From the NCBI RefSeq assembly GCF_025717065.2, contig NZ_JAOVZO020000017.1:372001-436000 (forward strand): 64,000 nt of DNA, in the 5' to 3' direction. Source of the DNA: Tahibacter soli (GTDB lineage: Bacteria; Pseudomonadota; Gammaproteobacteria; Xanthomonadales; Rhodanobacteraceae). The notes under the pieces are model-generated. The model was not told where the DNA came from, did no database searches, and was given only the letters and a program-made list of their open reading frames with translations. Both the position numbers and the translations under genes were made by a program. This document shows positions 49,512 to 60,114 of this stretch, piece after piece; position 1 is the first letter of the stretch; the number at the start of each line of letters is the position of its first letter.

Positions 49512-49608
49512 AGGCGCCGCATGTGTTGCGAAGACCGGCGCGCAGCATAGCAAGACCGCCGCGCGCGATCCGTCATGTCGTGCGTCATCCGGTATATGCT
49601 CGCGCGCC

Positions 49609-50361
49609 ATGCGCCACCACCTGACCGAACTCGTGCTGTTCAGCACCTACGCCGAGCTGCGCGCCGAGCGCGCGCGCAGCTACCTCGGCTTCGTCTGGTG
49701 GCTGGCGGAACCGGCGATGATGATGGCCGCGTTCTGGATCGTGTTCGACGTGATCCTCGATACCGGCGGTCGCGACTACCTGCCGTTCCTCCTGATCGGC
49801 CTCGTCGTGTGGCAGTGGATGAAGTCGTGCATCACACATGCGGGCCACGCGATCTGGACCAACCTCGGCCTGATCCGGCAGGTGCGCGTGCCGGTACTGA
49901 TTTTTCCGTTCGTGCAGATGTTCGCCGACACGGTGAAATTCGGCTGCGTTTTCGTGCTGCTGCTCGCGATCCTGTGGCTGCTCGGCTTTCCGCCGAACCG
50001 CGCCTACGCCGCGCTGCCGCTGCTCCTGCTGTCGATCTTCGTCTGCGCCGCCGGCGCGGGGCTCGTCGTCGCGGCGCTGATGCCGCTCGTGCCGGACCTG
50101 CGCTTCGTGATCGAGCAGGTGCTCACGGTCGTGATGTTCCTGTCCGGTGTCGCGTTCGCGCTGCGCAACGTGCCCGACTGGCTGATGACGGCCAATCCCG
50201 TGCTCGTGCTGCTCGATGCGGTCCGCGGCGTGCTGATGTACGGCACGTGGCCGGACTGGCCGGCGCTCGCGCGGGCGACGGCGGCGTCGTTCGCGGCGGG
50301 CGCGATCGGCGTCGGGCTCGTGCTGCGCTTCGCGCCGCGTTATCCGAAGATGGCGGTCTGA
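49609..50361 (+). CDS. wzm: Polysaccharide ABC exporter, membrane subunit (Wzm-type)
   Basis: 250 residues, ABC-2 permease. The N-terminus has the amphipathic helix and RSYLGFVWWLAEPAMMM of O-antigen/teichoic acid exporters. Six membrane helices follow, for example FWIVFDVILDTGGRDYLPFLLIGLVVWQW, FGCVFVLLLAILWLLGF and MPLVPDLRFVIEQVLTVVMFLSGVAFAL. It forms the channel with the ATPase encoded next; stop and start codons overlap (TGATG). Start ATG at 49609. Probably exports a lipid-linked glycan made by the divergent glycosyltransferase. Confidence 0.9.
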   Translation: MRHHLTELVLFSTYAELRAERARSYLGFVWWLAEPAMMMAAFWIVFDVILDTGGRDYLPFLLIGLVVWQWMKSCITHAGHAIWTNLGLIRQVRVPVLIFPFVQMFADTVKFGCVFVLLLAILWLLGFPPNRAYAALPLLLLSIFVCAAGAGLVVAALMPLVPDLRFVIEQVLTVVMFLSGVAFALRNVPDWLMTANPVLVLLDAVRGVLMYGTWPDWPALARATAASFAAGAIGVGLVLRFAPRYPKMAV

Positions 50362-51062
50362 TGGCGGCGCTCGTCGAACTCGATCGCGTCGGCGTCGCGT
50401 TTCGCGCGCAGCGGCGCCTCGGCAGCGAGCGTTACTGGGCGCTCGAGGACGTGAGCGTGTCGCTCGAACGCGGCCACCGGCTCGGCGTGGTCGGCCGCAA
50501 CGGCGCCGGCAAGAGCACGCTGCTGCGGCTCGTCGCGGGCATCCTCGAACCCGACCGCGGCACGGTGCGGCGCGCGCCGGTCACGTGCCAGCTGCTGTCG
50601 CTCACGCTCGGATTCGTGGGGCATCTGTCGGGACGCGACAACGCGATCCTGTCGGGCCTCCTGCTCGGCCTGTCGCGCCGGCAGATCGAAGCGCGCATCG
50701 AAGCGATCCGCGAATTTTCGGAACTCGGCGATTTCTTCGAGCAGCCGATCGCGAGCTATTCGTCGGGCATGGTCATGCGGCTGGGTTTTTCCGTGGCCAT
50801 CCAGGTCGAGCCCGACGTACTGCTGATCGACGAAGTGCTCGCCGTGGGCGACGCGCACTTCCAGGAAAAATCGGGCCGCGCGCTGCACGAGCGCCTGCGC
50901 GAAGGCTGCACGGTGGTGATCGTGAGCCACGAGGAAAGCAAGCTCGCGGACCTGTGCGACCGGCTGCTATGGATCGAGCACGGCCGCAGCGTGATGGAAG
51001 GACCGTTCGACGAGGTGATCGCGGCGTATCACCGCGAATTGCACGTGGGAGAGGGAGGCTAG
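50361..51062 (+). CDS. wzt: Polysaccharide ABC exporter, ATP-binding subunit (short Wzt)
   Basis: 233 residues. Walker A GRNGAGKST, the Wzt-type HRLGVVGRNGAGKSTLLRLVAGILEPD and LGFVGHLSGRDNAILSGLLLG, signature YSSGMVMRLGF, Walker B VLLIDEVLAVGD, and H-loop VSHEE. It lacks the C-terminal carbohydrate-binding extension that Wzt of O9a-type systems uses to recognise a capped glycan, so the substrate is probably not end-modified. Its stop codon shares CTAG with the stop of the convergent first array gene. Confidence 0.93.
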   Translation: MAALVELDRVGVAFRAQRRLGSERYWALEDVSVSLERGHRLGVVGRNGAGKSTLLRLVAGILEPDRGTVRRAPVTCQLLSLTLGFVGHLSGRDNAILSGLLLGLSRRQIEARIEAIREFSELGDFFEQPIASYSSGMVMRLGFSVAIQVEPDVLLIDEVLAVGDAHFQEKSGRALHERLREGCTVVIVSHEESKLADLCDRLLWIEHGRSVMEGPFDEVIAAYHRELHVGEGG

Positions 51063-52153
51063 TCGACGTTCCCGCCGGCGTATCGCTGCTCGGCGACGTA
51101 GTCTTCGACCTCGAAGCCGGGGCCGTGCAGCACGCACACGGCGACGTGCACCGGATCGACCGGCTTTGGTCGCAACGCGAGCGGCAGCGACGCGGCGACC
51201 GCCTCGATGGCGTCGACGCCGTTGCCGTCGCGCAGCAGCCGGTGGAACTCGCGCGCCGCCAGCGACCCGGTGCCGTCGAGCACCATCGCATCGATGGCCT
51301 CGTCGACGGCGATTCCGCGTAGCGCGAGGCGGCAGTAGCGATCGCGATCAGCCGCATCGGTCGCGGCCTTCGCACCGAGCTGCGCGCCGTACTGCGCCGC
51401 GTACGGGGAGTTCTTCACGGCGATCAGCATCTGCGCCAGCCGCAGACGTTCGACGTCGGACGTTGCGTAGTCGTCGCGAATTTCCTCGAGCGCGCCGCGC
51501 AACACGGTATCGGGCTGGAAGAAGTCGGCCGACCGCGCGTAAAAGGTCTCGCTGGTCTGCGCATCGAAATCCGCGGGCGCGGTGGGCGGCACGAACCCGT
51601 AGCGTTCGACGACGCTCGCCGCGAGTGCGCGCGTTGGCGCGTAGTGATCGTCGTAGCGCGTGGCGCCGGAGAATTCGCCGACCTCCCGTCCGCATGTCTG
51701 CTCATCGTCGCCGTCGTCGGAATCCGTGCCGGATGTGCGCGCCTCGGCGGACAGCCCGAGAACGAACAGATTGCCCGGTTCGGCGGCACGCCAACGCACG
51801 AGCGTTCCTTCGCAACGCTGCGTCCGCGCGCAGTACTCATGCCACATCAGACGGCCGGCGCCCGTCGCCGGCTCGGGCAGCCGCGCGGGCGGCGCATGCT
51901 CGTCGCGGCAGGTTTCCTGCGCGGCGATGACGGCGCCGGCCCAGGCGATATCGGGATCCGCATCGGCGGCGACGCGCGCGCCGAGCGCGCGTCGCCATGC
52001 GCAGACCGCGGCGTCGTACTCGACCGTCGCCGCGTTGCGGCGGTCGGGCGGCAGTTCGTACGGTATCGGTTCCTCGACCCAGATCTCGCGCGGCGGATCG
52101 GCTTGCGCGACGGGCGTCGCAGCCAGCAACAAGGCGATGATCGATATGCGCAT
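51059..52153 (-). CDS. Secreted array paralog 1 (family with DPDPxxAWAG, EPDN and TRYDD motifs)
   Basis: 364 residues with signal peptide MRISIIALLLAATPVAQA. Family motifs: NAATVEYDAAVCAWRRALG, DADPDIAWAGAV, GAGRLMWHEYC-x5-C, AEPGNLFVLGL, ATRYDDHYA, TSDVERLRLAQMLIAVKNSPYAAQYGAQLG, RYCRL, NGVDAIEAVAASLPLALRPKPVD. GGAGGT lies upstream of the ATG at 52153. This is the last gene of the same-strand array and has an extra acidic insert after the second motif (TSGTDSDDGDDEQT). No enzymatic signature; the secreted location and conserved Cys pairs suggest a stable extracytoplasmic protein. Family and function not recognised. Confidence 0.8.
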   Translation of the reverse strand: MRISIIALLLAATPVAQADPPREIWVEEPIPYELPPDRRNAATVEYDAAVCAWRRALGARVAADADPDIAWAGAVIAAQETCRDEHAPPARLPEPATGAGRLMWHEYCARTQRCEGTLVRWRAAEPGNLFVLGLSAEARTSGTDSDDGDDEQTCGREVGEFSGATRYDDHYAPTRALAASVVERYGFVPPTAPADFDAQTSETFYARSADFFQPDTVLRGALEEIRDDYATSDVERLRLAQMLIAVKNSPYAAQYGAQLGAKAATDAADRDRYCRLALRGIAVDEAIDAMVLDGTGSLAAREFHRLLRDGNGVDAIEAVAASLPLALRPKPVDPVHVAVCVLHGPGFEVEDYVAEQRYAGGNVD

Positions 52154-52237
52154 TCGTGCACCTCCGAGACGACGGACGTTGCGCGCGCAACGAAACGTCG
52201 CAGCGACGCGCGCGCAATCGGAGGAGTCGCCGGCCGG

Positions 52238-53278
52238 CTACGGTATCGTCGTGACGTCTGCTATCGCCTCGATCGGTTCGACGTCATCTTCGTCCTCTTC
52301 GCCGTCGACTTCATCGACGCAGGCATCGATGTCGTTCTCGTTGACCGGCGCCGGCCGTTGCGCGAGCGGGAGACTCGCCGCGAAGGCGTCGATCGCATCG
52401 AGCGCGTTGCCGTCGCGCAGCAGGTCGGCGAACCGTTGCGCGGCGGGGGAGTCCGGCTTTTCGATCGTCAGTTCCCACAGCAGCTGGGCGTTTTCGTTGG
52501 CGCGCGCGTCGGCCGTGCAGTACCGGCGGCGTTCGACGGGATCGGTGACGGCGTCGTCGATGCCGTGCCGCGCGCCGTACTCGGCGGCGAACGGCGTGTC
52601 GCGTGCGGCGAGCAGGATCCGCGCGAACTGCGCATGCAGCGCGGGCGCGAACGGCTCGCGGTTGTCCAGAGCATCGAGCGTGCGGCGCATCGCCTGCATC
52701 GGAAAAACGAGGTCGGCCGGCTTCTCGTCGATCGTGCGCCACATCGGGCCGGGCAGGTAGTCGCTCGGCTTGCGCGGCGGCGCGACGTCGTAGCGCGCGA
52801 GTACCGTCGCGACGATGCGGCGCACGTCGCGCCAGCCGTCGGCATAGTGCGTGGTGCGGTCGAAGTCGGCGTCGGAAACGGGTTCGTCGTTCTCGATCGC
52901 GAGCGCCAGCACGTAGAGATTGTCCGGCTCGGCCTTGCGCCACCGCGCGAGCGCGTCGTCGCAGGTGCCCGAGCGCTGGCAGTAGTGCAGCTGCATCAGC
53001 CGGCCGCCGGCGGTCGTCGGCGGCGACGGCACGAGCGCCGGCGGTTCGGTCGCCTCGCAGTTGTCGCGCACCGCGAGTGCGGCGCCGGCCCACGCGACGT
53101 CGGGATCGGGATCGGTCGCGATGCGCTCGCCGAGCGCGCGCTGCCACGCGCAATACTGGCGGTCGTACTCGATCGACGCCGCGTTGCGCGGCCCCTGCGG
53201 AATGAAGATCGGACACGCGCTCGCCGCGGTTGCGAGTGTGACGGCGAATCCGGCAAACAGGAGCGGCAGCAGTCGCAT
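52238..53278 (-). CDS. Secreted array paralog 2
   Basis: 346 residues; signal peptide MRLLPLLFAGFAVTLATAASA at the ATG at 53278, preceded by GAGGAGAAG. An in-frame start further upstream would lack a signal peptide. Motifs: NAASIEYDRQYCAWQRALG, TDPDPDVAWAGAA, TAGGRLMQLHYC-x5-C, AEPDNLYVLALA, and a degenerate TTHYADGW in place of TRYDD, then PVERRRYCTADARA and NALDAIDAFAASLPLAQRPAPV. The C-terminus is a long acidic tail (EVDGEEDEDDVEPIEA) absent from the other members. Secreted; function unknown. Confidence 0.8.
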   Translation of the reverse strand: MRLLPLLFAGFAVTLATAASACPIFIPQGPRNAASIEYDRQYCAWQRALGERIATDPDPDVAWAGAALAVRDNCEATEPPALVPSPPTTAGGRLMQLHYCQRSGTCDDALARWRKAEPDNLYVLALAIENDEPVSDADFDRTTHYADGWRDVRRIVATVLARYDVAPPRKPSDYLPGPMWRTIDEKPADLVFPMQAMRRTLDALDNREPFAPALHAQFARILLAARDTPFAAEYGARHGIDDAVTDPVERRRYCTADARANENAQLLWELTIEKPDSPAAQRFADLLRDGNALDAIDAFAASLPLAQRPAPVNENDIDACVDEVDGEEDEDDVEPIEAIADVTTIP

Positions 53279-53339
53279 GGGCTTCTCCTCGGCAAACGCA
53301 ACGGGGAAAAGCTGCAACGGCACGCGCGGCGCCGCGGGG

Positions 53340-54353
53340 TCAGGTCGGTTCGTCGTCGTCGAGTGCGTCGAGGCTGATCTCGGTGGTGGTGGTGACGTCG
53401 CGATCGTCGCCCGCGGCGCAGCGTGCCATCCGTGCCGCGTCGACAGGGGCCGGGCGCAATTGCGGCGGCAGGTGCGCGACGATGGCGTCGACCGCGTCGA
53501 TGCCGTTGCGGGTGCGCAGCGCCTTGCGGAATTCGCGCGCGGCCGGCACGCCGTCATTCTCGATCGACAGTTGCGCGATGGTGGCGTCCGCGGCGCTGGC
53601 GCGCAGCACGAGGCGGCAGTAGCGCTCGCGCTCGACCGGGTCTGTCGCGGCGAGGGCGCCGAGGTGCGCGCCGAACACCGCGGCTTCCGGCGTTCCGGTG
53701 GCGGCGACCAGCAGTGCGGCGAGTCGGGCTCGCACCGTGCGATCGAGCGTCCGGTTTTGCACCAGCGCACGCAACGACAGCGAGTACGCGATCATCAACG
53801 GAACCAACGAGATCGGCTCGTCGTCGACGATGGTGACGGGCAGGCCCGAGTCGTAGTCTTCCGGTTTGTGCGGCGGCGTGAGGTCGTAGCGCGCGGCGAC
53901 CGCTGCGAGCAGCGCATGCGTGTCGAGGTAGTAGTCGTCGTACCGTGCGGCGCGCGCAAGGTCGACGGCGCCGTCCGAGCGCGCCCTCAGCAGCACGAAC
54001 AGGTTGTCGGGTTCGGCCGCGAGCCATTGCGAGAGCGCTTCGGGGCAGCGTTTGATGCTGCAGAACTTGTAGCGCATCAGTCGCCCCGCGCCGGTTCTCG
54101 GCATCGGCGGCAGCGCTCCCGTGTAGTCGCCGACCGCGCCGTGCGCTTGCGTCGTGATGGCCAGGCCGGCCCAGGCGATGTCGGGATCGGGATCGGCGCC
54201 GATGCGATCGGCGAGCGATCGCAGCCACTCGCCGCGCAACCGGTCGTATTCGACGGATGCGTCATTGCGCGATCGCCGCTCGACGAACGAATCGGCGCGC
54301 GCGTCGAGCGTGGCGAACGTCATCAGCAGCAGCCAGCCGAGTGCGAATCGCAT
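53340..54353 (-). CDS. Secreted array paralog 3
   Basis: 337 residues; signal peptide MRFALGWLLLMTFATLDARA, with AGAGGTGA upstream of the ATG at 54353. Motifs: NDASVEYDRLRGEWLRSLA, DPDPDIAWAGLA, GAGRLMRYKFC-x5-C, AEPDNLFVLL, RYDDYYLDTHALLAAVAARYDLTPPHKPEDYD, DPVERERYCRLVLRA, NGIDAVDAIVAHLPPQLRPAPVD. Acidic C-terminus with DVTTTTEISLDALDDDEPT. All family cysteines of the central GRLM-x-x-x-[YF]C...C block are kept. Function unknown. Confidence 0.8.
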   Translation of the reverse strand: MRFALGWLLLMTFATLDARADSFVERRSRNDASVEYDRLRGEWLRSLADRIGADPDPDIAWAGLAITTQAHGAVGDYTGALPPMPRTGAGRLMRYKFCSIKRCPEALSQWLAAEPDNLFVLLRARSDGAVDLARAARYDDYYLDTHALLAAVAARYDLTPPHKPEDYDSGLPVTIVDDEPISLVPLMIAYSLSLRALVQNRTLDRTVRARLAALLVAATGTPEAAVFGAHLGALAATDPVERERYCRLVLRASAADATIAQLSIENDGVPAAREFRKALRTRNGIDAVDAIVAHLPPQLRPAPVDAARMARCAAGDDRDVTTTTEISLDALDDDEPT

Positions 54354-54420
54354 GGGTCACCTCTGCGTCGGAACAGGCCGAGTATCGCATTCGCGATCCC
54401 GGCGGCGAGGACGGTTCGAT

Positions 54421-54606
54421 CTATTCCTCGGCATCGCTGCGTGCGACGCACGCGGCGATGGCCGCTTCGTCGGGCGGCTCGGCGCGCCGGTTGTCGGGCA
54501 GTTGCGCCTCGATCGCGGCGTACGCATCGATCTCGGGCATCTTCGCGTCGGCGGCGAAGGCGGCGATGCCGATCGTCAGCAACAGCGCGGTCGGTGCCTA
54601 TCGCAT
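54421..54606 (-). pseudogene. Collapsed array paralog: signal peptide joined to family C-terminus, with a stop at codon 3
   Basis: A 62-codon remnant between paralogs 3 and 4. It reads MR-stop-APTALLLTIGIAAFAADAKM, a signal-peptide-like start with TAG as the third codon, then directly DAYAAIEAQLPDNRRAEP and DEAAIAACVA. That second part aligns with the C-terminal end of the neighbours (DAVDAVAAQLPASRRPDP, ERVAACVA). About 270 internal codons are missing, so this is a deletion remnant fusing the two gene ends. The stop and the deletion argue against a functional protein, though a short peptide from a downstream start cannot be excluded. Confidence 0.75.
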
Positions 54607-54641
54607 GGTGCGAAATCCTGTGGACTGTGGCAGGAGCGGCG

Positions 54642-55691
54642 TCAGCGGCCGACCGATGAGCTGCTCGCTGCGATGCATGCCGCGACGGCCGCGTCGTCGA
54701 TGTCGCGCAGCGGCTCGTTTTCCTCGCGCGCGACGGCTTCGGCCGCATCGATCGCGTTGCGCGTCGTCAACGCCGCATAGAAGCGACGGCGGCGTTCGTC
54801 GGCGGCGTCGTCCCCGAAAAGGTAGCGGCTCGCGAGCGTCCTCGATACCGCCTCGAGCCTCGCCTTTTCGCGGCACCAGCGCTGGCGGTCGGCCGGCGCG
54901 ACGGCGACCGCGTCGCCGATCGCCACTGCGCGGTCGGCCGCATACGGCGTGTCGGTCGCGGCGAGCATGAGTTCGGCGACGTGCAGTTTCGTCGAGGCGG
55001 AGATCGACGCGTCGCGCCGGATCGCCGAGGCCGTGAGATCGGAAATCGTCGAGACGCGATACGCGAACACTTCGGCGAAGCCGACGCCGTAGTGCGTCTC
55101 GCACGGCGGCATCTCGTAGTCCGCCGGCGGCACCGGCGGCGCGACGTCGTAGCGTGCCGCGATCTTCGCCGGCAGCGCGCGGAACGCCGCGTCATGATCG
55201 TCGTAGCGCGTCGCCAGCCGGAGGCGGCGATCGACGTCGCCGAGGCCGGCACGACGTTCTCGCGTCAGCGCGCGCTCGAAGACGAACGCGTTGTCGGGCT
55301 CCGATGCGATCCAGTCGGCGAGGCCGTCTTCGCAGCGCGACGGGCGGTCGCAGTAGAGAAAGCGCAGCCAATGCGCGAGCACGGTAGCCGGCTGCGGCAG
55401 GTCGCGTGCGGCCGGTTCGGGCGCTTCAGGAGGCGGTCGCGCACCCGGCGGCGGGGGAGGCCGTGGCGGCGCGTGGCTCGGAGTCCGGAGACCGAAGAGC
55501 CGCCCCGCGTACGAGATTTCGGGATCGGGGTCGTTGCGCAACCGTGCGCCGAGTTCGGCGATCCAGGCGTCGTACGCGTCGTCGTATCGCGCGAATGTCT
55601 CGTTACGCTGGTAGCCGAGCTGCAGGGAGCACGCGCCCGCGGCGCCGGCGGCGGCGAGCGTCAGGACCAGCGCGGCGGCGATGCGTCGCAT
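54642..55691 (-). CDS. Secreted array paralog 4
   Basis: 349 residues; signal peptide MRRIAAALVLTLAAAGAAGA. Motifs: RNETFARYDDAYDAWIAELG, NDPDPEISYAGRL (YAG instead of WAG), a proline-rich insert (PSHAPPRPPPPPGARPPPEA), HWLRFLYC-x6-C, SEPDNAFVFERAL, ATRYDDHDAAFRALPAKIAARYDVAPPVPPADYEMPPC, ADRQRWCREKARL, RNAIDAAEAVA, DDAAVAACIA. Its ribosome site AAGGAG is formed by the last codons of the upstream paralog 5 (stop only 4 bp before this ATG), so translation is probably coupled. Secreted; function unknown. Confidence 0.82.
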   Translation of the reverse strand: MRRIAAALVLTLAAAGAAGACSLQLGYQRNETFARYDDAYDAWIAELGARLRNDPDPEISYAGRLFGLRTPSHAPPRPPPPPGARPPPEAPEPAARDLPQPATVLAHWLRFLYCDRPSRCEDGLADWIASEPDNAFVFERALTRERRAGLGDVDRRLRLATRYDDHDAAFRALPAKIAARYDVAPPVPPADYEMPPCETHYGVGFAEVFAYRVSTISDLTASAIRRDASISASTKLHVAELMLAATDTPYAADRAVAIGDAVAVAPADRQRWCREKARLEAVSRTLASRYLFGDDAADERRRRFYAALTTRNAIDAAEAVAREENEPLRDIDDAAVAACIAASSSSVGR

Positions 55692-55695
55692 GGCG

Positions 55696-56688
55696 TCACT
55701 CCTTCTTCGCGAGCCGCGCGTTGCATTTGGCGAGCGCCGCCTCGTCGATCGGCTTGGGCTTGAGCGCCTGCGGCAGTCTTGCCGCGATATCGGTCAGCGC
55801 GTCGATGCCGTTGCGCGTCGCGAGCGTCGCGAAGTAGTCGGCACGTACCGCCGGATCGACGCCGTGTCCGCCCTTGACGATCCATTCGTAGACGTCGCCG
55901 TCGAACGACCGTCCGCGCGCTTCGAGCGCGCAGTAGTGCGCGAGTTCGTCGGTGTCGACCGCGGCCCACGTGCCGAGGCGCGCGCCGGCGACCGCGGCGA
56001 GCGGGCTGCGGTTCGGCGTGGTCAGCAGCTGCGCGATTTTCAGCCGCAGGGGCGTTGCGAGCTTGCCGTCGTCGAGAAACACCGCCGCCGCAGCCAGCAC
56101 GGCCGGCTGGTTGCCGAGGTTGGGACGCGGCGCAACCGCGTCGAACGCCAGCACGCTGCACGCCGGCAGCACATAGCCGGCCGGCACGGGCGGCGGCGCC
56201 GGCACGCGCGCGAGCAGCGTTTCCTCGAGCGTGCGCGTCGCGACCGTGTAGTCGTCGTAGCGCGTCGCCCCGTCGAGCTTGCGCCGCGCCTTCGACGCGT
56301 AGCTGTCGTTCTCGTGCAGCGCGACCGCGAGCACAAACAGGTTGTCGGGTTCGCTTTCGACCCACTCGGTGATGCCGGTCGGGCAGCGCTCGGTTTCGCC
56401 GCAGTACGCGTAGCGCATCAGGCGGCCGACGCCGCTCGTCGGATCGCGCGGCAAGTCGAGCGTGGCCGCGTGATCGCCTTCGCCGACCTGCAGCAGCATG
56501 ACCAGCGATGCCCAGGCGACGTTCGGGTCGGGATCTTTCACGAGCGCGTCGGCGGCATCGTGCGTCCACTGCGCGTAATGCGCGTCGTAGGCACGCTGTG
56601 CGGGTTCGCGCCGATAGTCGCGCGGGGGCTTGCACGCGTCCGCGGTCGATGCGGCGAGCAGGCAGAGCAGGGCAAAAGCCAGGCGCAT
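55696..56688 (-). CDS. Secreted array paralog 5
   Basis: 330 residues from the ATG at 56688, preceded by AAGGAGG; signal peptide MRLAFALLCLLAASTADA. Motifs: QRAYDAHYAQWTHDAADAL, KDPDPNVAWASLV, SGVGRLMRYAYC-x5-C, SEPDNLFVLAVAL, ATRYDDYTVATRTLEETLL, then [65 protein letters not shown] and a short basic tail (KCNARLAKKE). It lacks the acidic tails of paralogs 2 and 3. Secreted; function unknown. Confidence 0.82.
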   Translation of the reverse strand: MRLAFALLCLLAASTADACKPPRDYRREPAQRAYDAHYAQWTHDAADALVKDPDPNVAWASLVMLLQVGEGDHAATLDLPRDPTSGVGRLMRYAYCGETERCPTGITEWVESEPDNLFVLAVALHENDSYASKARRKLDGATRYDDYTVATRTLEETLLARVPAPPPVPAGYVLPACSVLAFDAVAPRPNLGNQPAVLAAAAVFLDDGKLATPLRLKIAQLLTTPNRSPLAAVAGARLGTWAAVDTDELAHYCALEARGRSFDGDVYEWIVKGGHGVDPAVRADYFATLATRNGIDALTDIAARLPQALKPKPIDEAALAKCNARLAKKE

Positions 56689-56729
56689 GGAAACCTCCTT
56701 GTTCGGCGAATGACGCACCGGCGCGCCGT

Positions 56730-57721
56730 TCAGTCGCTCCCGGCGACACAGGCGGCGACACGTTCGGGATCGACCGGATCGGGCCGGCGGCTCGCCGGCA
56801 GCTGCGCGGCGACGGCGTCGACGGCGTCGACGGCGTTGCGCGTGCGCAGGGCGTCGAAAAAAGGCGGCGCACGCCGAGACGTTCAGCGTCGGGTTCGTCC
56901 ATGATCCATTCGAGCATGCCGACGTCGGCTTGAAGAACGGCGCGTTCGTTCAATTGGCAGTAGCGTTTGCGCTCGGCCGGCGATCGGGCCGCCGCGACAC
57001 CGAGTGCCGCGCCGACCTGCGCCGCGACCGGGCTGCCTTTTGCCGCGACCATCAGTTTTGCCAGATGCAGGCGTGCCGTGTCGTCGAGCGTGTCATCGTA
57101 CTTGAGGTCTTCGGCGCCGAGCGACGCCATCGCCACGAGTGCGTCGATACGTCCGGCGATGCCGTTCCCGTGCATGAAGCTGCATGGTGGCGAGACGTAT
57201 CGTTCGGGCTCCGGCGGCGGCTCGCCGGCGAGCCGCGTGATCTTGTCGCTCAGCGCTCGCGACGCGAGAAAGTAGTCGTCATAGCGGGTCGTTGCATCGA
57301 TGCCGCCGTGCGAGCGCCAGGCCGCTGCGTCGCCGAGATCGTCGCGAGCGAGCGAGCGCACGAACGCGTTGTCCGGCTCGGCGGCGATCCATGCGTCGAG
57401 CGCGGCCGGACAATGGCCGGAACCTTTGCAGTAGGTCGCGCGCAGCAGCCGGCCGAGACCGGTCGTCGGCGGCATCGGCAGTGCCGGTTTCGCGTCGTCG
57501 CCAGACGTTTGTGCCGACACGATAATCGCGCCGGCCCAGGCGACTTCGGTATCGGCGTCCGTCGCGAGCCGCCGGCCGACCGACTCGCGCCATTGCGCGT
57601 GCCGTTGGTCGTAGTCTTCGAACTCGGCTTCGCGTATGTAGCCCGGCGCGACGGAGCACGCATCCGCGTCGAACGCCGTCGCGCACGAAGCCAGCACGAG
57701 CCATGGCAGCACGAATCGCAT
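56730..57721 (-). pseudogene. Secreted array paralog 6, one-base frameshift near the C-terminus
   Basis: First gene of the array: signal peptide MRFVLPWLVLASCATAFDADA, then FEDYDQRHAQWRESVG, TDADTEVAWAGAI, GLGRLLRATYC-x5-C, AEPDNAFVRSLA, TTRYDDYFLASRALSDKI, LDDTARLHLAKLMVAAKGSPVAAQVGAALG and AERKRYCQLNERA, normal up to about residue 288. At a run of six A (+ strand 56857-56862) the frame shifts by one base. Beyond it the other frame gives the expected FDALRTRNAVDAVDAVAAQL, then PASRRPDPVD and RVAACVAGSD with a stop at 56730. Without a correction the original frame runs past the family end. Real mutation, homopolymer sequencing error or slippage are all possible. Confidence 0.75.
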
Positions 57722-57805: not shown

Positions 57806-58936
57806 TCAGGCGTTTTCGTGCGCCGGGGCGTCGAGGAAGTCGGTTTGCGTTTCCGGCGCCGGCAGGCAGCCGTAGGTCTTGATCAGGAGGTTGTCGGCGG
57901 AGTCGGCTTTCGTGATGAAGCGGCCCACGCGCTCGACGAGATCGTCATGCTCGGCCGGCGTGAACACGTCGCTCATGTGGATGACGAGATTCATGCGGAT
58001 CGTGCTGCCGGCGAGGTCGAAGAAGAACGGCGCGTGTTCGGCCGACAGTAGAAATCGGAACAGATCGTTCAACCCGCGCTTGCCCGGCTGCGCCAGGCGC
58101 GACGAGAAGTTCAGGTGGTCCGAGCAGCAGCACCACACCTTGATCGGCGCGCTGCCGTTGTAGAACGACCAGTTGAGATCGCCGTGCCGCGCGAGCACCG
58201 GGTCGACGTTCGCTTTGGCGAGCGCGCGCTCGACGAAGTCGGCGACCGGATGCGCATCGGGCGTGTGGAAAAATTCCTTGAAGTCGTCGCGCGTGTCGAG
58301 GTTCGAGCCGCAGCTCGGGCAGTAGCGCGTCGCTTTGGCGATCAGCTCGTCGCACGCCGGACACTGCACCCCGAACGGCACGGACTGCGCGCGGAACTCT
58401 TCGACGAAGCGGCGCACGTCGGCGACCGGTATGCCGAAGCCGACCGCGTCGGCTTCGTTGAGCTTGCACGTCGTCACCGCGATGATGCGCTGCTCGTCGT
58501 CGAGCATCGGGCCGCCGGAATTGCCGGGGTTGATCGCCGCGTCGGTCTGCAGGAAATACTGCTCGTCGAGCAGCTGGCGCGGATGCGAGATGACGCCTTC
58601 GGTCAGCGACAGCGGCAGCCCGACCGGAAAGCCGAGAATGTGCACCGGCTGCTTCGGCCGGTACTGTTCGATGTCGGAGAGCGGCAGCACCGCGCCGTCG
58701 ACGGGGCGGGAGAGTTCCACCACGGCGAGGTCGCGCTGCGGGTGCACGCGGCGCACGGTGCCGAGGATGCGCGTGCGATCGCGCATTTCGACCGCGACCG
58801 TGCGATACGGCGAAACGACGTGGCTGTTCGTGACGAGGTGCGTCGCGTCGATCAGAAATCCGGTGCCGGTGCCGCCGCCGGTGTACACCTGATAGACGCC
58901 GAGGTGATCGATCGCGTCGAGTATCTGCGCGCTCAT
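57806..58936 (-). CDS. Trypsin-like serine protease with zinc ribbon and YbjN-like C-terminal domain
   Basis: 376 residues. Protease domain (1-185): TGTGFLIDATHLVTNSHVV with H39, RDLAVVEL with D69, PGNSGGPM with S140. A zinc ribbon follows, with CPAC and CPSC (C192, C195, C206, C209). The C-terminal ~150 residues (DLNWSFYNGSAPIKVWCCCSDHLNFSSRL...FFFDLAGSTIRMNLVIHM) resemble a YbjN/type III secretion chaperone-like fold. No signal peptide, so the protease is probably cytoplasmic. The start ATG overlaps the upstream gene's stop as ATGA. Partner or substrate unknown. Confidence 0.85.
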   Translation of the reverse strand: MSAQILDAIDHLGVYQVYTGGGTGTGFLIDATHLVTNSHVVSPYRTVAVEMRDRTRILGTVRRVHPQRDLAVVELSRPVDGAVLPLSDIEQYRPKQPVHILGFPVGLPLSLTEGVISHPRQLLDEQYFLQTDAAINPGNSGGPMLDDEQRIIAVTTCKLNEADAVGFGIPVADVRRFVEEFRAQSVPFGVQCPACDELIAKATRYCPSCGSNLDTRDDFKEFFHTPDAHPVADFVERALAKANVDPVLARHGDLNWSFYNGSAPIKVWCCCSDHLNFSSRLAQPGKRGLNDLFRFLLSAEHAPFFFDLAGSTIRMNLVIHMSDVFTPAEHDDLVERVGRFITKADSADNLLIKTYGCLPAPETQTDFLDAPAHENA

Positions 58937-60114
58937 CGCGTGGCTCCTGCCGTATCGGCGTCTGCGGGTTCGTCGCGCTCGTCGTCGTCTTCGCCGCCGT
59001 GGGCGCGCACGAGATTCGTCGCGTGCGCGCGCATGACGTCGGCCGCTTCGCGCAGCGGCCGGCCGGAGGCGAGGTCGAGCGGTTCGCGCAGCGCGGCGGC
59101 GATCGCCGCCGGCCATGCGAAGTACGCGAGCAGATAAAGATAGTCGACGGCCTGGTACAGCGCCGATTCGAGCGTGCGGCCGGCGGCGTTCAGATCGCCG
59201 ATCGTCTGGTCGCGCTGGGCGCCGGAGAGCACCTTGGTCAACAGCGACGGCGAGCCGTCGTGCAGCGGGTTGATCGCGTAGCGCGCGTGGCCCAGGCAGC
59301 GCGCGAGTTCGTCGCGCGAGCGCTGCCGCATTTCCTTGACGCACTGCGCGAGCGCGGCCTGGCGCTTGGTCGGATGTTCTTCGCGGTCGGCGTAGACGTC
59401 GTCGGCGTCGGAGAGATCTTCGCGCAGCGAGCCGTACAGCGGCAGTGCGTATTCGATCTGGCTGTTCGCGTACGCGGCGATCGTATTGAGCAGCGCGGTC
59501 GAGCGGCGGCGGCGCAGTTCGTCGAGCATGTCTTCGGTCGCGGCCCAGTGCGCGTCCCAGATCGCGCAGGCGGCGTCGAACTCGTCGGCGGCGAGCGGCG
59601 CGATCGGCTCGCGGTCGCTCGCTTCGACGCCGAAACTGTCGACGAGCCACGCGTCGTGACCGCTGGCTTCCTTCGCCGTGGTTTGCAGAAGTTCGATCAG
59701 TTTCAACGGATGCATCAGCGCGACGCGATCGGAGTATTCGAGCGCGACGACGTCGTCGCGCAGACGCGGCTGGTACAGCTGGCCGGTGGCCGCGACGCTC
59801 GACACGAAATGGCGCAGCGCGGCGGTCGCGTTGCTGTCGGGCGTCAGCGTCGCGAGCACGGCGCTGAGATAGAACCGGTCGCCGTCGACGTGCAGGCGCA
59901 CGCGCGCCGAACCCTGCACGAGACACAGCGGTTCGCGCACGAGGTCGGGCGTCGCCATGCCGGGAATGAGATAGGCGATCGACTCGCCGATCGCGGCGAG
60001 GCGTTCGCCGCTCTCGAACATCTCGACGGCGCGGTCGCGGCGCGCGTGATCGCGCGGGGTATGCGCGAACTGGCGGCGAACGGGCGCGGGCAGATACAGC
60101 GAAGTGATCGACAT
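58933..60114 (-). CDS. Hypothetical protein coupled to the protease gene
   Basis: 393 residues from the ATG at 60114 (MSITSLYLPAPVRRQFAHTPRD). No signal peptide. The N-terminal half contains LVREPLCLVQGSARVRLHVDGDRFYLSAVLATL, reminiscent of a chaperone-like alpha/beta domain also seen in the protease's C-terminus. The C-terminal half is helical and has a region suited to coiled-coil pairing (DELRRRRSTALLNTIAAYANSQIEYAL), ending in a very acidic tail (GGEDDDERDEPADADTAGATR). Stop and protease start overlap by 4 bp, implying 1:1 synthesis. Probably a partner or regulator of the protease. Confidence 0.65.
   Translation of the reverse strand: MSITSLYLPAPVRRQFAHTPRDHARRDRAVEMFESGERLAAIGESIAYLIPGMATPDLVREPLCLVQGSARVRLHVDGDRFYLSAVLATLTPDSNATAALRHFVSSVAATGQLYQPRLRDDVVALEYSDRVALMHPLKLIELLQTTAKEASGHDAWLVDSFGVEASDREPIAPLAADEFDAACAIWDAHWAATEDMLDELRRRRSTALLNTIAAYANSQIEYALPLYGSLREDLSDADDVYADREEHPTKRQAALAQCVKEMRQRSRDELARCLGHARYAINPLHDGSPSLLTKVLSGAQRDQTIGDLNAAGRTLESALYQAVDYLYLLAYFAWPAAIAAALREPLDLASGRPLREAADVMRAHATNLVRAHGGEDDDERDEPADADTAGATR

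Follow-up and report, generated by a model that had tools for sequence, protein, structure and literature searches.

The DNA under study is a 64,000-nucleotide stretch of the Tahibacter soli genome (the window, meaning the whole of that stretch), in which a tandem array of six related genes was found on the minus strand between positions 51059 and 57721. The genes lie in the transcription order p1, p2, p3, p4, p5, and p6, with one internally deleted remnant between p3 and p4. Five copies are intact and encode proteins of 330 to 364 residues: p2 (55696-56688, 330 residues), p3 (54642-55691, 349 residues), p4 (53340-54353, 337 residues), p5 (52238-53278, 346 residues, with its start placed at the ATG at 53278), and p6 (51059-52153, 364 residues), whose 3′ end overlaps the 3′ end of a convergent ATP-binding cassette (ABC) ATPase gene. 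The remaining copy, p1 (56730-57721, 3′ limit set by hand), is open for about 283 codons and is then frame-broken near 56857. Computed spacers were 84 bp from the stop codon of an upstream protease gene to p1, 4 bp between p2 and p3, 61 bp between p4 and p5, and 84 bp between p5 and p6, with 288 bp separating p3 from p4 where the remnant is located; the distance from the apparent out-of-frame stop of p1 to p2 was counted by hand at about 41 bp. Pairwise identity among the six copies is 30-43%, and a series of ordered motifs is visible in their alignment, with individual copies missing some of them. The codon-position G+C content was coding-like in every copy (for p1, over the 283 codons ahead of the break), and a purine-rich stretch was discerned by eye 5′ of the starts, clear for p2, p3, p5, and p6, with a weaker one at p1 and at p4. 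The array is more than a product of chance. Judged by eye, a signal-peptide-like N-terminus is present in all six copies as well as in the remnant, and on the strength of these starts the copies are probably exported. The first-pass annotation, which had described six same-strand relatives with short spacers and a remnant, shared ordered motifs, and repeated duplication of secreted-looking, strongly diverged paralogs, thus agrees with the coordinates, identities, and alignment; its count of six genes stands for the related genes present, but as p1 is broken near its 3′ end only five of these are intact.

The reading frame of p1 is lost at a run of six T residues, the window holding six A/T runs of at least six, and the C-terminal homology of p1 resumes in another frame at 56727-56927 (E-value 6.4e-14 with a profile built from the alignment of the six window copies, termed A1 or the array profile; the separate main match has an E-value of 2.7e-113). 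The remnant (minus strand, approximately 54421-54606) retains about the last 40 residues, preceded by a signal-peptide-like N-terminus whose third codon is TAG, the C-terminus being matched at 54424-54534 with an E-value of 0.0038 by the array profile and 9.5e-4 when the relative L081, described below, was added to that profile. The reading frame likewise seems to be broken in a second gene of the wider family elsewhere in the same genome (L069:7107-8272, contig C18), adjacent to a ParA-like gene; that break lacks a run of at least six, and the counterpart in the sibling genome G005 (L070:7076-8281) is open.

The copies were compared with named families, the Pfam query for p5 lacking the first 16 codons and that for p1 ending at codon 274. 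No Pfam model scored above cut-off for any of the six, the only sub-threshold matches being Clathrin_H_link for p6 (E-value 0.075) and Patatin for p3 (2.7); NCBIfam likewise gave none above cut-off, galF reaching 0.19 for p2, far under its cut-off. A kinase domain was not matched in the six copies by Pfam or NCBIfam, nor did Pfam models of the tetratricopeptide repeat (TPR) exceed the gathering score in any of them, while one relative matched TPR_16 at an E-value of 0.0029, below cut-off. Free-standing relatives of the copies, when scanned, also gave no Pfam model above cut-off. Against PADLOC the five intact copies (p1 not included) had no matches at an E-value of 0.1, and against PHROGs, for which four copies were queried, the one match was short and weak (p3, E-value 0.0014). 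A tblastn search of p4 against plasmids and phages returned no match, and a scan of contigs of named genomes with the array profile gave 82 pattern matches and no relatives. A literature search found no account of this family among the papers listed, which is not proof of absence. The earlier statement that no named family was recognizable is therefore borne out for Pfam and NCBIfam.

The array lies downstream of the ATP synthase genes, the same-strand order being atpD, atpC (our own reading), a gene for a 393-residue protein, the protease gene, and then the array. Within the window genome (6.65 Mb in 23 contigs), all matches to the copies as query fall at the array locus, and a whole-genome search of seven sibling genomes with the copies found none, although it missed one distant relative. 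The latter was found by reading the atpC flanks of these siblings, with the open reading frames (ORFs) of the gaps scanned in six (that of G003 was left out). One of the six gaps encodes a relative, a 314-residue protein of G005 positioned between atpC and glmU (L081:15186-16127), which was detected by the array profile at an E-value of 5.7e-8 among the ORFs of the six gaps vs 0.011 with the profile of the wider family. Because the genome search with the array profile had missed L081, claims of absence based on genome searches alone are unsafe; with that reservation, the window genome is the only one of the eight genomes of the genus to show the array. L081 is only 22-29% identical to the window copies, whereas glmU is 78.5% identical between the two genomes, and the gene at this site thus seems to evolve fast.

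Whether the copies stand alone was judged in 233 genomes from the bacterial family and in a sample of 398 from the order. When the six copies alone were used as query, 11 of the 233 genomes were matched, weakly outside the copies' own genome, and five of these matches fell on one gene. This gene, termed A2 after the alignment built from it, encodes a secreted-looking protein and is located between ParA-like and spermidine-synthase-like ORFs by our own reading of L016, the sole locus at which its neighbors were read. The A2 profile matched 207 of the 233 genomes and all 26 genera, mostly with one match per genome and with 58-79% identity to the first row of the alignment. Comparison of the array profile with that of A2 by hhalign gave an E-value of 3.4e-6 over 204 colinear columns, and comparison with a profile of ten relatives gave a score of 74.2 over 259 columns, where the maximum of 60 block-shuffled controls was 34.4 and the reversed control scored 14.0. 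Against single sequences the array profile scored 34.5-41.4 for six of ten family members and 24.7 for one, 34.0 for L081, and 13.8, 18.1, and 22.1 for three kinase ectodomains, the maximum being 22.4 for a null set of 150 non-family ORFs, many of which are not real genes and all of which had been cleared of profile hits beforehand. Addition of L081 to the array profile extended its reach to 89 of the 233 genomes; of the 87 other than G000 and G005, 78 had a hit to the wider family among the matches listed, and in 78 of 78 this was the same gene. A profile of 13 relatives that included L081 and no window copy (A4) in turn detected p2 (3.9e-7) and p1 (2.2e-5) in the window genome, with p3 to p6 not found at an E-value of 0.001, and matched 212 of the 398 genomes sampled from the order, in 61 of 98 genera. 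In a tree of 30 sequences, p1 to p6 formed one clade (99/99), with the long-branched L081 as its sister (81/93, with a warning).

A pattern of C-x4-7-C, PDN, and a DD[HY]-like turn, defined by both order and spacing and written after the family had been seen, occurs in four of the six window copies (p4 and p5 lack it), 6 of the 13 rows of A4, 29 of 30 orthologues of A2, and all four of the kinase C-terminal parts introduced below, compared with 78 of 1127 locus ORFs of at least 250 residues, a set that still includes family members, and none of 3800 shuffles. Array-profile matches in four genomes (G095, G223, G205, and G004), so far as they were traced, lay outside the family gene, which may weigh against this assignment. 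Overall, the membership of the copies in an unnamed, order-wide superfamily of PDN/DDH helical proteins is well supported by sequence comparison. That the array might be an orphan family was rejected in view of the hhalign scores, the reach of the L081-extended profile, the A4 matches, and the coincidence of 78 of 78 hits on the same gene; the isolation implied by the first-pass annotation did not hold, as more than half of the genomes sampled from the order contain the superfamily. The same annotation had considered that the homologs might be single-copy housekeeping proteins elsewhere: the nearest widespread relative is indeed a single match in most genomes that have it, but nothing shows a housekeeping function. 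One further single-protein match, in G022 (E-value 2.6e-5, with an internal stop), was the sole extra one outside the copies' own genome and was set aside, as the ORFs of that region (L072) match neither A1 nor A2. Two open frames of 711 and 717 residues (L155:2651-4783 and L157:1610-3760) were observed to contain two superfamily matches per chain and no kinase match.

An AlphaFold model of p2 is helical, with a mean predicted local distance difference test score (pLDDT) of 80.6, a predicted template modeling score (pTM) of 0.79, and no strand as long as three residues. Foldseek, followed by a VIA second look, returned no significant Protein Data Bank (PDB) match for this model, so that a structural comparison, the check proposed in the first-pass annotation and made here with p2, did not connect the copies to a characterized family. 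Chains of NlpI, LbcA, and PilW were among the non-significant rows. At the sequence level, the array profile had no match in the PDB, and A4 reached only E-values of 0.2-0.7, designed TPR proteins among them.

Within the genus, the wider profile was also found to match Hanks-type kinases, in the region that follows a membrane-helix-like stretch (the stretch by our own reading). This C-terminal part is linked to the superfamily via A2, with profile E-values down to 5e-12 in a small ORF set, and the kinase domain itself is matched by Pkinase at 1.1e-34. Just upstream of the kinase gene are (i) a gene for an extracytoplasmic function (ECF) sigma factor (TIGR02937, E-value 1.3e-6, below cut-off); and (ii) a free secreted-looking copy of the superfamily protein. 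All three genes were present at five of nine loci examined (L142 to L145 and L088, the last in the window genome) and also at L090 of G005, so that the module occurs in sibling genomes and in a gammaproteobacterial metagenome-assembled genome (L142). A further nine loci picked for long open frames, together with three repeats, included six with the kinase part; five of these also have an ECF gene, and all three genes are present at one (L156). In the window genome the module is on contig C8 (L088:8651-12697), where the secreted-looking protein, the ECF-type sigma factor, and the kinase are all encoded and the C-terminal part of the kinase belongs to the superfamily. The kinase ectodomains and module copies form a separate clade in the tree (100/100).

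The same-strand genes upstream of the array encode a trypsin-like protease that carries a zinc ribbon and is not a family member (57806-58936), separated from p1 by the 84-bp spacer, and the 393-residue protein (58933-60114), which has no Pfam family; both lie between atpC and the array and had no tblastn match in the seven sibling stretches read. The trypsin part of the protease matches the RT-Protease_XI models of PADLOC (2.5e-19). Downstream, an ABC-2 permease and the ABC ATPase, together forming an exporter (49606-51062), are encoded on the plus strand and are convergent with the array, and their adjacency thus does not mean co-transcription. Exporter genes adjoin the atpC flank in five of the seven siblings, with a gap of about 0.2 kb in G003 and G004 and 2.1-2.4 kb in G002, G006, and G007; in G005 and G001 the exporter was not seen in the stretch read. 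The interval from atpC to wzt or glmU is variable, and by our own reading L082, L083, and L086 hold instead a secreted-looking protein that resembles carboxypeptidase-regulatory-like repeats. The G005 locus has two atpC-like genes (L081:16246-16701 and L081:19204-19653) about 2.5 kb apart, with Sel1-like ORFs between them (our own reading).

Taken together, the explanation we consider probable is a lineage-specific tandem duplication, by which a single species of Tahibacter would have multiplied the gene for a helical, TPR-like, and probably exported protein whose relatives make up the unnamed order-wide superfamily. By analogy with these relatives, the copies probably have a role in binding or sensing. 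A scaffold of helical hairpins would be held by the conserved PDN turn and perhaps by a disulfide at C-x5-C, and on it the diverging faces of the six copies may bind different protein or peptide partners. Their likeliest use would be in sensing or as adaptors, in soluble form like the copy encoded with the kinase, and not in catalysis. It is unlikely, and we offer it only tentatively, that the array is the bacterial equivalent of an expanded receptor or decoy family, its soluble ectodomain-like members having been freed from kinase-ECF sensing and diversified through tandem duplication, with each recognizing a different competitor, predator, or peptide signal in the periplasm or beyond the cell.

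Other explanations differ in what the copies would act upon. They may be co-receptors for the Hanks-type kinase encoded in this genome, binding either its ectodomain or its ligands and adjusting the output of the ECF sigma factor, the array being a dispersed arm of the module. Within the genus, the C-terminal part of the kinase and the free, secreted-looking protein encoded ahead of the ECF gene do both come from this superfamily, and L088 places such a module in the window genome; yet the array is unlinked to the kinase, the module copies and ectodomains keep to a clade of their own, and three of the four ectodomains were not singly recognizable from the array profile, leaving this explanation possible at best and rather unlikely. 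NlpI and LbcA are TPR proteins that pass substrates to periplasmic peptidases or cell-wall hydrolases, and it is conceivable, though we regard it as unlikely, that the copies are periplasmic adaptors of this kind; the helical, secreted-looking architecture and the presence of NlpI, LbcA, and PilW chains among the structural rows are in keeping with it, the latter at scores that were not significant.

The copies may instead be drifting, without a selected role, in a dispensable duplication that is being lost. The frame break of p1, the reduction of one copy to a remnant, the apparently broken gene beside the ParA-like gene, and the failure of the genome search to find copies in the seven siblings (albeit with L081 missed) all point in that direction. 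Drift over 30-43% identity would, however, be expected to break more copies, and that five are intact, with coding-like G+C and mostly with ribosome-site-like bases upstream, counts against decay, which we consider improbable. A surface or polysaccharide role in partnership with the ABC exporter, as the first-pass annotation had suggested, was rejected as highly improbable: the exporter is directly downstream of the array, but it is convergent on the other strand, and the five siblings that retain it do so without the array, no family match being found among the ORFs of the four of their five gaps that were scanned. The broader suggestion of a surface, defense, or nutrient role gained no support from PADLOC or, apart from the weak match of p3, from PHROGs, and the informative context of the relatives is kinase and sigma-factor signaling. 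Origin from a mobile element was also rejected, as neither plasmids nor phages gave a match to p4, the one copy tried, and there is a homologue in syntenic position.

This places an orphan-looking array within a superfamily whose window copies exceeded the cut-off of no Pfam or NCBIfam model, and whose scanned free-standing relatives exceeded that of no Pfam model, and which is found across an order that also includes plant pathogens and predatory soil bacteria. The superfamily offers a concrete, testable ectodomain for modules of Hanks-type kinases and ECF sigma factors, and the array, with its six copies, provides a natural experiment on the diversification of such a domain. Among known systems, NlpI, LbcA, and PilW are helical-repeat proteins located outside the cytoplasm that bind other proteins, and they had neither a sequence match nor a significant structural match to the window copies. 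An experimental parallel, by description, is PknS-EcfK of Xanthomonas citri, in which a Hanks-type receptor kinase with a periplasmic TPR region activates the ECF factor EcfK in amoeba resistance; in that study, truncations of PknS that lack the periplasmic TPR region did not complement a pknS deletion, and how the periplasmic region is activated was left to future work (PMC13147305). The window copies differ from PknS in having no kinase. The C-terminal part of the Tahibacter kinase is related to them through A2 and has the C/PDN/DDH pattern in all four cases, but it is fused to a kinase and probably membrane-anchored, while neither fusion nor linkage to a kinase is seen for the window copies. 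The protein encoded by A2 is alike over about 200-260 colinear columns, with a signal-peptide-like start, C-x6-C, a PDN turn, and YDDY; most genomes, however, have just one match to it and its sequence is conserved across genera, whereas the window copies are arranged in tandem and diverging fast.

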